Below, piece after piece: positions 12,125 to 19,119 of a DNA stretch of 41,463 nt. The notes under the pieces were generated by a model. It did no database searches. It was not told the DNA's origin and saw only the letters and a program-made list of their open reading frames with translations. Made by a program: the position numbers and the translations under genes. Source of the DNA: Planctomycetota bacterium (lineage in GTDB: Bacteria > Planctomycetota > SZUA-567 > H5-PLA8); NCBI GenBank assembly GCA_026184295.1, contig JAHCJK010000029.1, forward strand, positions 1 through 41,463, given 5' to 3'. Numbering within the stretch: position 1 is the stretch's first letter; each line of letters starts with the position of its first letter.

Positions 12125-13243
12125 CTACGTTAGAGGTTTGTTTCTATTTTTGTCGTGGCGCTGGCGGCGGTTGATGACCGTGCGAATCTCCTCCGCCCGA
12201 TAGGTGCGTTCCGGGGCCCGCTTCCGGCCTTCGGCGATCATCTTTTCGAGGGCTTCCCAGCCTTGCACCTGCGCCGGGGTCAGTGTCGCGGGCTTGCCCT
12301 GCTTCAGGCGATGGCGTACCGCGCGAAGCCAGCGCCGGGTCTCGCGCGGGAGCCGCGGGAGATCGTTCACCACCAGGCCTGTCACGCACTGCCGTTGGTG
12401 GTGGCGGCGAATCGATTTCTTCTTGCCCTTATGGAGCGTGTAGCCCTTTTTCTTCGTGATTCTTCGCACGCGAGAAAGGATGCGCTGGATGTTGCGCGTG
12501 TAATCGAGCGGGAACGAGATTGTGATGTCGTCCGCGTATCGGCTGTAGGTCCCGCCCTTCTGCTTCACGCGGTTTTGAATCTGTACATCCATGTAGTAGT
12601 TGACGAGGTTGCTCAGGCACGGGCTGGTGGGCGCGCCCTGCGGCAGGCCGTCTTCATGCGTGGTCAGGCGCGCAAGCAACGCGGCGGCCTCGCGGTTCCA
12701 TCCGATGCGGTTGAAGTAACGTTCCACGCGGCTGGCCTTGGTATTTGGAAAAAAATCCACGATATCGAGCCGGATCACAACCGCCTGCCGGATGTGCTGG
12801 TTGGCGTGGTCCACGATGCTGCGGCCGCGCACGAAGCCGTAGGCGCACGGATGCGTCTTCAGTTTGCGCAGCAGACGCTTGAGGATGCGGCGCTGCACGA
12901 CCTTGGTGGCATCGTCGGGCACCATCAGCCGCCGCTTGCCGCCGCTGCGCTTGGGGATGAAGACTTCCTGGTAGCGTGGCTGGAAGGCCCGAAGTTCGTC
13001 CACGCGCATGTCCAGGCGCCGCGCGATTTCCGCGACGGCCATGCCCCGGTTGAAGCGAGTGCGAAACCAGAGGCGCAGGCTGTTGCTGTATTCATATTGG
13101 AGAAACGAATGAATCATGCTGATGACAATGGACAGCGCGATGCCGGCCACGAATCCGATCAGCGCGCCCGCCACGCCCCAAAAAATCCCGCCTACGGCCG
13201 GCGCCAAGATGATCAATAAGAAATAGAAAAGGCACATCGGCAT
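12125..13243 (-). CDS. Retron-like reverse transcriptase with fused N-terminal membrane segment
   Basis: 372 residues. The start is the ATG at 13243 or a second ATG at 13237; no strong ribosome site precedes either. The RT core shows IPKRSGGKRRL (about 96-106), region-X-like DHANQH (145-150), catalytic DIVDFF (D160), GLPQGAPTSPCLSNL (about 199-213), the YADD box (236-239) and the thumb motif VTGLVVND (287-294) followed by RRWLRAVRHRL. The combination of (N/H)AxxH and VTG motifs with a 300-odd-residue core is characteristic of retron RTs; maturase or DGR features are absent. Unusually, residues 3-48 are almost wholly hydrophobic, enough for two membrane helices, with a GxxxGxxxG pattern at G26, G30 and G34. 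Two structured non-coding units lie directly upstream. No partner effector gene adjoins. Confidence 0.85.
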   Translation of the reverse strand: MPMCLFYFLLIILAPAVGGIFWGVAGALIGFVAGIALSIVISMIHSFLQYEYSNSLRLWFRTRFNRGMAVAEIARRLDMRVDELRAFQPRYQEVFIPKRSGGKRRLMVPDDATKVVQRRILKRLLRKLKTHPCAYGFVRGRSIVDHANQHIRQAVVIRLDIVDFFPNTKASRVERYFNRIGWNREAAALLARLTTHEDGLPQGAPTSPCLSNLVNYYMDVQIQNRVKQKGGTYSRYADDITISFPLDYTRNIQRILSRVRRITKKKGYTLHKGKKKSIRRHHQRQCVTGLVVNDLPRLPRETRRWLRAVRHRLKQGKPATLTPAQVQGWEALEKMIAEGRKRAPERTYRAEEIRTVINRRQRHDKNRNKPLT

Positions 13244-13934: not shown

Positions 13935-13970
13935 GAACGCACGGCGGCTGCGCATGCCACACGCGCACGC

Positions 13971-14020
13971 CACACGCACACGCACACGCACACGCACACG
14001 CACACGCACACGCACACGCA
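13971..14020. repeat. CACACG hexanucleotide tandem repeat
   Basis: About 8.3 uninterrupted copies of CACACG, followed to about 14089 by degenerate CACACG/CATACG copies. The strict purine-pyrimidine alternation makes it prone to slippage and to left-handed DNA. Open frames across it encode only Thr-His or Val-Cys dipeptide patterns and are not genes. Confidence 0.95.
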
Positions 14021-14186
14021 TATGAAAACGCATATACATGCGCATACGCACTCGCACACGCATACCCACACCCACACGCACGAAAGACCGGATGCCCAGG
14101 GTGGGTGCTATTCTGGGTGGATGAAATCAAGGAAACGGGTGTGATCGGGAGGTGGGTCTTAGGCGAGCTACAAGGGATGCGTTTAA

Positions 14187-14394
14187 GGCGCGTGACATAG
14201 GCGCGTGTCATAGGCGCGTGTCATAGGCGCGTGTCATAGGCGCGTGTCGTAGGCGTGTGTCATGGGCGTGTGTCTTGGGCGTGTGTCTTGAGCGCGTGAC
14301 TTGGGCGTGCGTCTTGGGCGTGCGTCTTGTGCGCGTATCTTGGGTATGTGTCGTTGGGCGTGTGTCGTTGACACGCGTCTTGTGCGTGCGTGAC
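14187..14394. repeat. 13-bp minisatellite, about 16 units
   Basis: Tandem units of GGCGCGTGTCATA at the left drift gradually to GGCGTGTGTCTTG and more degenerate forms at the right; units from 14187 to 14290 are in exact 13-base register. The ordered drift suggests growth by slippage or unequal exchange. No spacer structure, so not a CRISPR array. Confidence 0.92.
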
Positions 14395-14506: not shown

Positions 14507-14860
14507 TTACTTCGCCTTCAGCGCCGCCGCTTCGTCGGCGTAGATGCTCAGTTCCTTGTCGAAGCCGAGCATGTTGATCACGGCCATCGTGCCCTGCGGG
14601 ATCTTGATGAGCGCGAAGCGGCCCTGAATCTTCGAGAATTCGTCGGTGTATTTGAGCAGCAGGCCGACGCCGGCGGAGTTGATGTATTCGAGCTTCGTGC
14701 AATCGACGATGACCAGCTTCGCGTCTTTCTCGATCAGCTTGTCCATCACCTGCTCGAACTCGTTGAGCGTCGAGGCGTCCACGTAGCCGTCGAGCGAGAC
14801 CTTCACGCCCGTCGTCCCGGTCTTGGACTTGATGACGCCGACTTTGAATTCGATAGGCAC
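14507..14860 (-). CDS. STAS-domain anti-sigma factor antagonist
   Basis: 117 residues from a GTG at 14860 with GGGAG five to six bases upstream. It is a single STAS domain of the SpoIIAA type: strands around VKVSLDGYVDAS and KLVIVDCTKLEYI, then NSAGVGLLLKY, where S62 is at the usual phosphorylation position. Such proteins bind and neutralise an anti-sigma kinase when unphosphorylated. No kinase is present in the window. It lies 101 bases downstream of the aldolase gene on the same strand and may share its transcript. Confidence 0.88.
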   Translation of the reverse strand: MPIEFKVGVIKSKTGTTGVKVSLDGYVDASTLNEFEQVMDKLIEKDAKLVIVDCTKLEYINSAGVGLLLKYTDEFSKIQGRFALIKIPQGTMAVINMLGFDKELSIYADEAAALKAK

Positions 14861-14961: not shown

Positions 14962-15999
14962 TCAGTTGTACAGCTTCGCGATTTCCGTGAGCGGCTTGGC
15001 CTTGATCTTGCCCGCGTTCCCGGCCTGGCCGAACTGGATCATGCGTTCCTTCACGATCGCCTTCATCGCCTCGCGGGCCGGCTTGAGGTAATCGCGCGGG
15101 TCGAACTTCTCGGGCCCTTCGGAGAGCACCTTGCGGATCGCGCCGGTGATGGCCATGCGGCAGTCGGTATCGACGTTGATCTTGCGGACGCCGTTCTTGA
15201 TGCCGACCTGAATCTCTTCGACCGGCACGCCCCACGTTTCCTTCATCTTGCCGCCGTACTTGTTGATGATGTCCTGGAGCGACTTCGGCACCGAGGAGCT
15301 GCCGTGCATCACCAGGTGGGTGTTGGGCAGCTTCTTGTGAATCTCGATGATGCGGTCCATGGCCAGGATCGCGCCGTCGGGCTTGCGCGTGAACTTGTAC
15401 GCCCCGTGGCTGGTGCCGATGGCGACGGCGAGCGCGTCGATGCCCGTCTTGGCGACGAAATCGACGGCTTCGGCGGGATCGGTGAGCAACTGGTCGTGCG
15501 AGAGCGTGCCTTCGGCGCCGTGGCCGTCTTCCTTGTCGCCCTTGCCGGTTTCCAGGTTGCCCAGGCAGCCGAGTTCGCCTTCGACGGTGATGCCCTGCTT
15601 ATGGGCGAGCTGGCAGACTTCCTTGGTCACCTGGACGTTGTAGTCGTAGGTCGCGGGCGACTTGCCGTCTTCGGCCAGCGAGCCGTCCATCATGACGCTG
15701 GTGAAGCCCATGTCGATGGCGCTCTTGCAGGTGGTCACCGAGTTGCCGTGGTCCTGGTGCAGGACGACGGGGATGTTGGGATAGAGTTCGGTCGCGGCGA
15801 CCATGAGGTGATAGAGGAAGCGGTCGTTGGTGTAGCTGCGCGCGCCGCGGCTCGCCTGGATGATCACCGGCGAATCGGTCTCCTTCGCGGCCTCCATGAT
15901 CGCCTGAATCTGTTCCATGTTGTTGACGTTGAAGGCGCCCAGCCCGTAGCCGTTTTCGGCGGCGTGGTCCAGAAGCTGGCGCATGGCAACCATCGGCAT
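14962..15999 (-). CDS. fba: Class II fructose-bisphosphate aldolase
   Basis: 345 residues from the ATG at 15999, with AGGAG eight bases upstream. It cleaves fructose-1,6-bisphosphate to dihydroxyacetone phosphate and glyceraldehyde-3-phosphate, or does the reverse, in glycolysis, gluconeogenesis and carbon fixation. The beginning [15 protein letters not shown] and the zinc-binding VVLHQDHG (H81, D83, H84), VEGELGCLG and LVMHGSSSV motifs are those of the Calvin-cycle (type B) subfamily, as is the full length. The end has the usual [12 protein letters not shown] motif. The neighbours (STAS, anti-sigma) are not metabolic, so its placement is not informative. Soluble and cytoplasmic. Confidence 0.95.
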
Positions 16000-16100: not shown

Positions 16101-17732
16101 TTACGGCGTGCCGGCCAGTTTCTGGCGCAGCCACTTGCGCGGCACCTGTCCGGTGACGCGGATGCCCTCCAGCAGGGCCTCCTCGCGCAGCGCGCTGACC
16201 CACAGCGCGCCGGGGACCAGCAGGTTGCGCGAGACGGTGACGGGCTTCGACTTCCCGGAGGCCGTCGTCAGCACCGCCTGCGTGTCGAGCCCCGCTTCGA
16301 CGAAGTCGAGGCGCACGCGCTCCAGCGTCTTGGCCTGCGCGCGGAAAGGCACGCGCGAGGCGCCCGGATGGTCGGGCTCGCGCACGGTCAGCACGGCCAC
16401 CTGGCGGTCGAAATCGGCCGAGACGCGGCCCTTGTCGGTGTCGAGCACCACGCAGGCGATCGCGCCGTCCTTGGGCGAGTCCGGATGGATGGCCAGTTCG
16501 ATGCTCGCCGGCACCGTGATGGGCGCGGCCAGCGTGCAGCGCGCCTCGGCGGGCAGGGAGAGCGTCCCGCTCGGCTTCTGCGCGATCGCGGCGCCGCCGG
16601 CGACGTTCCAGTCCTGCAGGCCGCCCGGCCGGCCGAATCCGTAGCTCAATTCCACCACGGGGCCTTCGGAGCGCCGGTCCACCACCCGCACCGCGCCGCC
16701 GAAGAGCGCGGACATTTCGGCGTCGTTGAGCAGGTCCATGCGCCAGAGGGGGAGCAGGTTCTCGGGCGCCGATTTCTGCGGCTCGATGCGCGCGTCTTCC
16801 CAAAAGGAGGCTTCTTCGCCGGCCTTCACGTCGGCGTTGGACTTCCCGCCCCAGTAGCTGACGGCGGCCGAGCCCTTCCGCACCAGCACGTCGCACTGGC
16901 GGCCCTGGGCGTTGCGCGCGGCGCGCACGTACACTTCCGAACCGGCCGGCACGCGCACCGTGGCCGCGTCGGTCCGCACGACCCAGACCTGGCCGGCCTC
17001 GCCGTTCTTTTCCTCCGCGCGTTCGACCCCCATCTCGCCGTTGGGCACGTGCAGGATAAAGGCCTGGTCCGTCGCGCCCGGGCGGCGGAACTTCACCTCC
17101 GTCCCCGGCCCGACGCAGACGCTGCCGCCCTCCATCTCGAACCGGATGCGCCCGTCGTCGCGCGTCGCATACTCGTCGTCGGTGCGCACGGGCTTCCCGA
17201 CGTTCACCGCCGACCACTGCTCGCCCTGCTTCTGGAAGAACTGTTCGGCCTTGCCGGCCGCCAGGGTCAGCGTGCCCAGTTCCTTGGGCGCCTTGTCGAG
17301 CCCGTCGGCGGGGTAGAGCATGATGCAGGTGGCGGCCACGAGCCCCAGAATCAGGATGCCGACCACCGCGCCGGACCACGGCGTCTGCCGGCGCTGGCTG
17401 ACCGCGGCGGGGGCCTTGACCTGCAACTGCGCCTTGCGGGTGGCGGCGCGCGCTTCCATGCGCAGGCGCTTTTCGGGCGGCAGGGTCTCGATGATCTTCT
17501 GCGATTCGACGCGCGCGGCGGACATCACATGTTCGTCGAAGTTCTGGCTCGGCTGCACCGAACGCATCGCGGGAATCGCTTCCATCGCGCGGCCGGTGCC
17601 CTTCAACTGCTTGTACGTGGCCATGCAGGAGGGGCACAGCGCCAGGTGTTCCTGGACGAGCACCGCCTCCTGCTCGGGCAGCTCGTCGAGCAGGAAGTCG
17701 GACAGTTTATCGGTGCACTCGGTACAGTTCAT
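16101..17732 (-). CDS. Membrane anti-sigma factor with zinc-finger and FecR-like region
   Basis: 543 residues from the ATG at 17732 (weak GGCGGA upstream). The N terminus is a zf-HC2-type zinc anti-sigma domain with C3, C6, H29, C33 and C36 (HLALCPSC). One membrane helix spans about 119-139. Outside the membrane, a FecR-like beta-rich region (about 150-320, with [19 protein letters not shown]) is followed by a lectin-like or other beta domain to the end. It should hold the sigma factor encoded directly upstream at the membrane and release it on a periplasmic signal. The sigma gene ends 98 bases upstream on the same strand. Confidence 0.85.
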
Positions 17733-17830: not shown

Positions 17831-19000
17831 TTACAAGTAATCCTTCACCGACTTGCGCAGCCGTTCGAGCGCCGCATGAATGCGGCTGCGCACCGTGCCC
17901 ACCGGCACGCCCACCACTTCGGCGATCTCGCGGTATTTCAGCCCCTGGAAGCACTTCAGGATCAGGATGTCGCGTTCCAGTTCCGGGAGCGTCTTCAGCG
18001 ACTCGTCCAGCTTGGAGGTCAGTTCGGAGTTCACGATCTGTTCCAGCGGGTCGGTGGTGCTGGAGCGCAGATTGTCGCCGATGTGGACGCTGTCCGAGTC
18101 GTTCCGCCCGCGCGAGCCGCCCACGGATTCCTCGATCGAGACGGTGGGGTGGCGCGAGCGCCAGCGCAGCTCGTTTTTGCAGAGGTTGCGGACGATGGTG
18201 TAGAACCACGTCGAGAAGCTGCGCGGGTACTGGTAGCTCTTCGCGTCCTTGAAGATGCGCAGGAAGGCTTCCTGCCCGAGCGCTTCGGTGCGGTTGCGGT
18301 CGCCGATCATGCGGTAGATGAACGAGAGCGCCGGGCCTTCGTAGCGCTGGAAGAGGACCTCGAACGCGGCCTCGTCGCCTTCCTGGCAGAGGCGCATCAG
18401 GTCTTCGTCGGTCAGCTTGGCGACGTCGAGTTCCTCGACGGTGGGCAGTTCCTCGAGCGCGCGGTGCACCGCGGAGGCCGAATCGGGCGAGCCGCTCGAC
18501 TGAAGCGGGTCGGCGAGGACCTTCAGCGTGCCCGACGAGATGCCTTCCTTGATGCCGCTCTTCGATTCGCCCAGGGATTTCAGGCTGCCGGAGGACTTGC
18601 CGCCGCGGCCCTTGCCTTCGCCCAGCGTCTTCAGCTTGCCCGAGGCGTCCGGAACGGTCTTCAGCGAGCCGGAGGATTCGGAGACGGTCTTCAGGTTGCC
18701 GGAAGACGCGGGCTTGAGGCCCTCGTCCACCGCGCGCAGCACGACGCTGGTGTTGCCGTGGCCTTCCTCGGTCACCGGGCGGCGGATGCTGGTGTCGCCG
18801 CCGCCGGGCGTACGCGCGGCCCGCGCCTGGGCCGGGTCGAGCGGGTCCGCGCCCTCCTCGATGGGCTCGGGGGCCTCCTCGATCGGCTCGACCTCTTCCA
18901 GGTCCTCGGCCTTGGGCGTTTCCTTGTTCGAAGAAGGAGCGGGCCCGTCCTGGCCGGGGGAGGGGGGAGGCGAGGTTGTGGTCGGTTCTTCGCTCGCCAT
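17831..19000 (-). CDS. ECF-type sigma factor with long low-complexity N-terminal extension
   Basis: 389 residues from the ATG at 19000 (GGGAG close upstream). Residues 198-389 are a standard ECF sigma factor: region 2 with DEAAFEVLFQRYEGPAL and ...EAFLRIFKDA, and region 4 with ELERDILILKCFQGLKYREI and the helix-turn-helix VPVGTVRSRIHAALERLRK. Residues 1-197 are an acidic, Pro/Glu/Ser-rich extension containing five or six units of the form SGxLKx(V/L), plus TSIRRPVT and TSVVLRA segments. Ordinary ECF factors are about 180-200 residues, so half the protein is extra. The anti-sigma gene lies immediately downstream. Confidence 0.9.
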   Translation of the reverse strand: MASEEPTTTSPPPSPGQDGPAPSSNKETPKAEDLEEVEPIEEAPEPIEEGADPLDPAQARAARTPGGGDTSIRRPVTEEGHGNTSVVLRAVDEGLKPASSGNLKTVSESSGSLKTVPDASGKLKTLGEGKGRGGKSSGSLKSLGESKSGIKEGISSGTLKVLADPLQSSGSPDSASAVHRALEELPTVEELDVAKLTDEDLMRLCQEGDEAAFEVLFQRYEGPALSFIYRMIGDRNRTEALGQEAFLRIFKDAKSYQYPRSFSTWFYTIVRNLCKNELRWRSRHPTVSIEESVGGSRGRNDSDSVHIGDNLRSSTTDPLEQIVNSELTSKLDESLKTLPELERDILILKCFQGLKYREIAEVVGVPVGTVRSRIHAALERLRKSVKDYL

Positions 19001-19119
19001 AGCTCCCGGAAATCCAAGCTCAAGAAAACGATGCCGAAACGTCCGGCCGCGGACCCGCGCGTATGTTCGTGCTTGGAACGAATTCCGTCAAGGAACGGCG
19101 TACGAATCGAACGCCGCGC

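Follow-up and report, generated by a model that had tools for sequence, protein, structure and literature searches.

What does a long, repeat-bearing N-terminal arm do on a sigma factor whose gene stands beside that of an anti-sigma factor? The question is raised by a gene at 17831–19000 on the minus strand of a 41,463-nucleotide stretch of Planctomycetota DNA (contig JAHCJK010000029.1 of assembly GCA_026184295.1; this whole stretch is called the window below). The gene has its ATG start at 19000 and encodes a 389-residue extracytoplasmic function (ECF) sigma factor, the first 197 residues of which precede the sigma core. The reading that we favor, and to which we give an even chance, is that the locus encodes an ordinary ECF/anti-sigma pair to which a genus-specific disordered tail has been added, expanded by slippage and having at most a tuning effect. 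N-terminally extended ECF sigma factors are already known; the distinct feature of this one is the tandem-repeat make-up of its arm and the change of that make-up between close species.

An ordinary sigma core behind a repetitive arm of predicted disorder

The protein matched PF04542, PF08281 and TIGR02937, all above cut-off, which identifies it as an ECF (group 4 sigma70) factor. Sigma70 region 2 was found at residues 216–283 and region 4 at residues 330–381 by Pfam scan, and these are the only conserved domains in the protein. Both lie in the segment that a preliminary description, made from the letters alone, had called an ordinary sigma core (residues 198–389; 17834–18409, minus strand), and the gene coordinates given there were also right, the strand being minus. 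In the AlphaFold2 model the predicted local distance difference test score (pLDDT) of the core was mostly above 90, with a dip in the linker joining regions 2 and 4. The predicted fold resembles ECF structures, and the structures of SigW, AlgU and sigma-E solved with anti-sigma factors matched the core. Bacillus subtilis SigW was the best match in both sequence and fold; however, nothing comparable to the arm is present in its solved 187-residue chain.

The 197-residue extension noted earlier was confirmed as residues 1–197 (18410–19000, minus strand), and it is indeed repetitive. It is predicted to be disordered to about residue 175: every 10-residue block up to residue 180 averaged a pLDDT of 40–59, no secondary structure was predicted before residue 176, where a short helix (176–183) begins, and no Pfam match was found in the arm at E ≤ 0.1. 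It contains an array of five SSGxLKxLx(D/E) decad units at residues 99–164 (18509–18706, minus strand). The preliminary description had counted five or six SGxLKx(V/L) units; there are exactly five, starting at residues 100, 110, 120, 137 and 156, and no sixth. Under the first decad units the DNA itself forms a 30-bp tandem repeat of 2.6 copies with 79% matches (18627–18703, minus strand). Further upstream in the protein, residues 37–57 form an array of three acidic heptads (VEPIEEA PEPIEEG ADPLDPA; 18830–18892, minus strand), which the preliminary description had missed and which has a 21-bp tandem array as its counterpart in the DNA of the sister species. In shuffles of the arm, one decad unit occurred in 269 of 100,000 and one heptad unit in 433 of 100,000, and two units of either kind in none; because both patterns had been taken from the sequence beforehand, these figures show non-random order and not function. 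The segments TSIRRPVT (residues 70–77; 18770–18793, minus strand) and TSVVLRA (residues 84–90; 18731–18751, minus strand), also pointed out previously, are both present, once each. The arm ends in a conserved pre-core segment that contains the short helix (residues 175–197, ASAVHRALEELPTVEELDVAKLT; 18410–18478, minus strand).

The repeats are confined to the genus

Ten orthologues were compared: those of nine genomes of the order, namely seven of the family (including this genome, G000, and the sister species, G001, the two members of the genus) and two of a sister family, plus one from another order of the same class (G011). There was one strong match per genome in all nine genomes of the order, this one included, and the G011 relative is 50% identical. 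For all orthologues but those of the two genus members, the start codon was set by hand, so that arm lengths there are estimates. With this limit, an N-terminal extension is present on this sigma factor in all nine genomes of the order: 197 residues here, 241 in the sister species, and 65, 92, 92, 118, 84, 42 and 60 in the other five genomes of the family and the two of the sister family. In G011 it is 23 residues.

Decad units were found only in the arms of this genome and the sister species; none occurs in the arms, 42–118 residues long, of the remaining seven genomes of the order. The sister species keeps both arrays in the same order, with seven decad units, and in its DNA the decads correspond to 4.7 copies of a 30-bp repeat and the acidic heptads to 2.8 copies of a 21-bp repeat, so the copy numbers of the tandem arrays differ between the two species. 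A search of the phylum with the array gave matches in 4 of 294 genomes at E ≤ 0.01, of which only the two genus members were convincing; the other two were weak (E about 0.006, in frames of 101 and 92 residues). Absence or lack of repetition of the extension in close homologues had been named in the preliminary description as what would tell against its significance, and the outcome is divided, since the repeats are kept in the sister species and absent from the order's other seven genomes.

Within this genome the arm had no match elsewhere at E ≤ 10. ECF-like loci were also surveyed directly (44 tried, 42 matched; L003 and L139 are the same gene, and the match of L137 has an E of 0.98), and neither decad nor heptad units occurred anywhere in the open frame upstream of the core in the 42 other loci. 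Nine of these can be read upstream for more than 45 residues; some of the nine frames look fortuitous, and others (L132, for example) may be real coding sequence. Eight of the 42 (L106, L113, L115, L116, L119, L124, L125 and L129) have open frames extending about 277–333 residues beyond the sigma core.

Constraint along the arm

The ratio of nonsynonymous to synonymous divergence (dN/dS) between this species and the sister species was 0.07 in the core (0.032/0.473), 0.44 at residues 1–60 (0.476/1.076), 0.53 at residues 61–165 (0.509/0.959) and 0.27 at residues 166–197 (0.252/0.924). At residues 175–197, 21 of 23 positions are identical in the two species. A recognizable pre-core segment is also present in G004 and G006 (TSSAVLAAVDDLPLAEEVEL and TSSAMLAAVEDLPLAEEVEL, respectively), and the likeness is weaker in the other genomes. 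A specific role appears to be confined to the last 23 arm residues (ASAVHRALEELPTVEEL...), which adjoin region 2.

The arm of this sigma factor is also patterned in charge, with a segregation that only 67 of 5000 shuffles reached. The segregation was weaker in the sister species (reached by 411 of 5000 shuffles) and in G004 (669 of 5000), and was not seen in G002, G003, G006 or G005, where 1207, 2295, 4190 and 4255 of 5000 shuffles reached it.

In the reading that we favor, the extension would have grown in this genus through tandem duplication of 30-bp units (encoding SSGxLKxLxD/E) and 21-bp units (encoding xEPLEEx), presumably by slippage. Most of the tail would be a weakly constrained, flexible, charge-patterned appendage that may at most tune stability or local interactions, while control of the sigma factor would lie with its anti-sigma factor.

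The adjacent anti-sigma factor

The preliminary description had placed a membrane anti-sigma gene downstream, and the gene is there (16101–17732, minus strand; 543 residues), its product matching the zinc-finger anti-sigma domain zf-HC2 with an E of 2.5e-08 in Pfam. The model contains a helix at residues 122–139 (17316–17369, minus strand), which we take to be a transmembrane helix, its hydrophobicity having been judged by eye, followed by a beta-rich outer part. The zinc-finger motif Hx3Cx2C is present: C3, H29, C33 and C36 are invariant in all nine anti-sigma factors aligned. RsiW, the anti-sigma factor of SigW, shares the Hx3Cx2C motif; the large beta-rich outer part is where the protein here differs. 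The Foldseek matches of the outer part, to GH32/GH43 enzymes and to legume lectins, had low TM-scores, so that a lectin-like sensor is only hinted at, and a FecR match in the same part was below the curated cut-off.

The anti-sigma gene is next to the sigma gene in 9 of the 10 genomes; in G011 only residues 2–80 of the anti-sigma factor aligned. In the tenth, G002, none was found beside the sigma gene or genome-wide at E ≤ 1e-5, in a search that had no positive control and of a genome that is 86% complete. By analogy with its family, this zinc-finger anti-sigma factor most likely keeps the ECF sigma factor at the membrane and would release it when its outer part senses a signal. The two genes are probably co-transcribed.

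Region 2.2 differs from the usual ECF motif

An additional feature, not covered by the preliminary description, lies in the core. With the alignment anchored on an invariant QE, the position of the region 2.2 motif DAED reads RTEA here (residues 237–240; 18281–18292, minus strand). RTEA occurs in 8 of the 10 orthologues, with RSEV in one and AAEG in one, so that the third motif position is Glu in all ten. Of 74 other ECF frames, 62 contained the region 2.2 pattern, and its fourth position is acidic in 52 of them. The structure alignment took in the ten orthologues and 26 of the 74 other frames; the remaining 48, including the fragments L025 and L046 (10 and 17 residues), were left out.

An altered DAED motif is shared with the ECF43 factors EcfP (STTA) and EcfK (QATE), in which the third motif position is a phospho-Thr (PMC8999054, PMC13147305; these and the other PMC sources below are cited from excerpts). 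According to the same excerpts a kinase gene is adjacent to EcfP and EcfK; here, in contrast, the third DAED position is Glu, neither Thr nor Ser, and no adjacent Ser/Thr kinase gene was found, the contig having no kinase match at E ≤ 1e-10. Glu at the phospho position in all ten orthologues argues against a need for phosphorylation in region 2.2, and ECF43-like phosphorylation of that region was therefore disfavored as a candidate mechanism.

Relation to known extended sigma factors

ECF sigma factors with N-terminal extensions have been reported from Planctomycete genomes, and as of 2021 there was no mechanistic information on regulation by such extensions, according to the excerpts of PMC8103513. 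The former groups ECF87, ECF88 and ECF89, as excerpted, resemble this sigma factor in combining an ECF core with an N-terminal extension and in coming from Planctomycetes; the excerpts of PMC8103513 mention no repeat array in extended Planctomycete ECF sigma factors. ECF36 members also have an N-terminal extension; the arm here differs in having no Pfam match (E ≤ 0.1) and in its predicted disorder. Regulatory extensions have been described as replacing a missing anti-sigma factor (excerpts of PMC8999054). Such a replacement does not apply to this group of sigma factors, given the anti-sigma gene adjacent in all but one (G002) of the ten genomes. The combination of an extension with an anti-sigma factor is not new in itself, because it exists in Streptomyces SigR', whose cognate anti-sigma factor is RsrA. 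As excerpted from PMC5472188, the SigR' extension is 58 residues long, is produced by use of an additional promoter and start farther upstream, and acts as a Clp degron. We found no earlier account of repeat-bearing ECF arms in the open-licence literature, although an earlier description is possible.

By itself the finding is a modest one: an ordinary sigma factor bears a disordered tail that evolves fast. Its value lies in a natural series: a constant sigma factor, with one strong orthologue per genome and mostly the same anti-sigma neighbor, bears arms of 42–241 residues with and without repeats within one order. Because this series of arms sits on a conserved core, the effect of the arm can be tested by arm swap or deletion.

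Alternative readings of the arm

Several observations weigh against a tail of little consequence. Ser occupies unit position 2, and Asp or Glu unit position 10, in all 12 decad units of both species, each of which exceeds the demands on a pure spacer. The two species share both repeat types, in the same order, and the arm is not free of constraint, since nonsynonymous differences (pN) stay below synonymous ones (pS) throughout. The repeats are carried by two species only, so the conservation test is a thin one. In addition, G002 has an 84-residue arm and yet no anti-sigma match. The invariant Ser bears on the suggestion, made in the preliminary description, of a phosphorylation- or binding-based control arm. 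For phosphorylation, Hanks-type kinases would modify Ser/Thr residues of the repeats and thereby alter binding of the sigma factor to RNA polymerase or to the anti-sigma factor. This genome does contain 91 matches to Pkinase (E ≤ 1e-10), the sister species keeps the Thr at the head of both TS segments, and the excerpted literature provides precedents in phosphosites in the disordered N-terminus of Mycobacterium tuberculosis SigA (PMC10011835) and in the region 2.2 phosphorylation of ECF43 factors already mentioned (PMC8999054, PMC13147305). However, none of the 91 matches is on the contig of the sigma gene (C212). The TS segments themselves are poorly kept: TSIRRPVT aligns with TDFRRAVM of the sister species (4 of 8 identical) and TSVVLRA with TDANLPV (2 of 7), the Thr being retained in each and the Ser in neither. 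A Thr or Ser follows LK in just 6 of the 12 units (4 of 5 here, 2 of 7 in the sister species), other genera have no decads, the position of the EcfP/EcfK phospho-Thr is Glu in all ten orthologues, and phosphorylated SigA, in the excerpts of PMC10011835, did not differ significantly in in-vitro transcription. Beyond the conserved unit Ser and the kinase matches elsewhere in the genome, little at the locus suggests phosphorylation, and we hold a phosphorylation arm to be distinctly improbable.

The regularity of the units, in which Ser, Leu, Lys and an acid are fixed (for Leu and Lys in part because the search pattern requires them), would also suit an arm that binds. SGxLK units might engage a partner repeatedly, or acidic and basic blocks might self-associate and so concentrate the sigma factor, and the acidic part could mimic region 1.1 of sigma70. 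The charge blocks of this arm exceed those of most shuffles, and a disordered region acts in bacterial Rho (excerpts of PMC10284900). Set against this are the weaker or unseen charge segregation in the relatives and the lack of any other match to the arm in the genome, which leaves no motif-sharing protein that would indicate a common partner. We consider such a multivalent or condensate-forming arm rather unlikely, and it is very doubtful that the SSGxLKxL array serves as a docking or condensate arm forming a second, copy-number-tunable control layer on the anti-sigma-controlled factor, with repeat number as a species-level dial. An arm that acts as a degron, as in SigR', would account for a long predicted disordered segment and has a direct precedent in an anti-sigma-controlled ECF factor (excerpts of PMC5472188), but a single promoter-like element was recognized upstream of the gene, no exhaustive promoter scan having been made, and we judge a degron quite unlikely. 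Finally, the arm could be an untranslated artifact of a wrong start, a frameshift or misassembly, since the assembly is split into 362 contigs and long open frames in it are often spurious. This is extremely improbable, because the same frame, start (MAS) and repeats occur in a different genome, that of the sister species, and because the arm has a lower pN than pS. Moreover, the G+C content of third codon positions here is 0.89 for the arm and 0.91 for the core (in the sister species, 0.80 and 0.88, respectively), and the distance from the first base of GAACAT in the promoter-like element to the start codon is 68 bp here and 70 bp in the sister species.

Upstream element and neighboring genes

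The conserved promoter-like element is TTGACG-N17-GAACAT (19063–19091, minus strand). It is exact in four of the seven family genomes (G000, G001, G004 and G006) and inexact in the other three; a related TTGAAA-N17-GATCAT, read by eye, is present in G003. Allowing one mismatch, we found a single copy of the element in the window, against one or more in 9 of 100 shuffles, and a single copy in the whole genome, where the reversed control likewise gave one match. It is therefore conserved place and not rarity that supports the element, and no regulon can be derived from it. In our reading the element is more like a housekeeping promoter than like an autoregulatory ECF promoter. An autoregulated ECF promoter (GAAC / CGT) was considered as a candidate and rejected, as such a motif was not conserved among the upstream regions and TTGACG-N17-GAACAT was conserved instead.

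The gene upstream of the sigma gene, of 489 residues, is not firmly linked to it, since in the sister species a 316-residue opposite-strand frame (L090, 4597–5547, plus strand) separates the relative of that gene from the sigma gene. After the anti-sigma gene come a gene at 14962–15999 (minus strand), presumably encoding a fructose-bisphosphate aldolase-like protein, and a gene for a STAS-domain protein (14507–14860, minus strand). In G001 and G003, too, the aldolase-like gene is found beside the anti-sigma gene, in regions about 7 kb long. A reverse transcriptase open reading frame of 372 residues (RVT_1, E 2.4e-21) is at 12125–13243 on the minus strand, and between it and the STAS gene the DNA is dense in simple repeats (13958–14388), with a 6-bp CACACG array of 20.5 copies and 13/26-bp arrays of GGCGTGTGTCTTG units.
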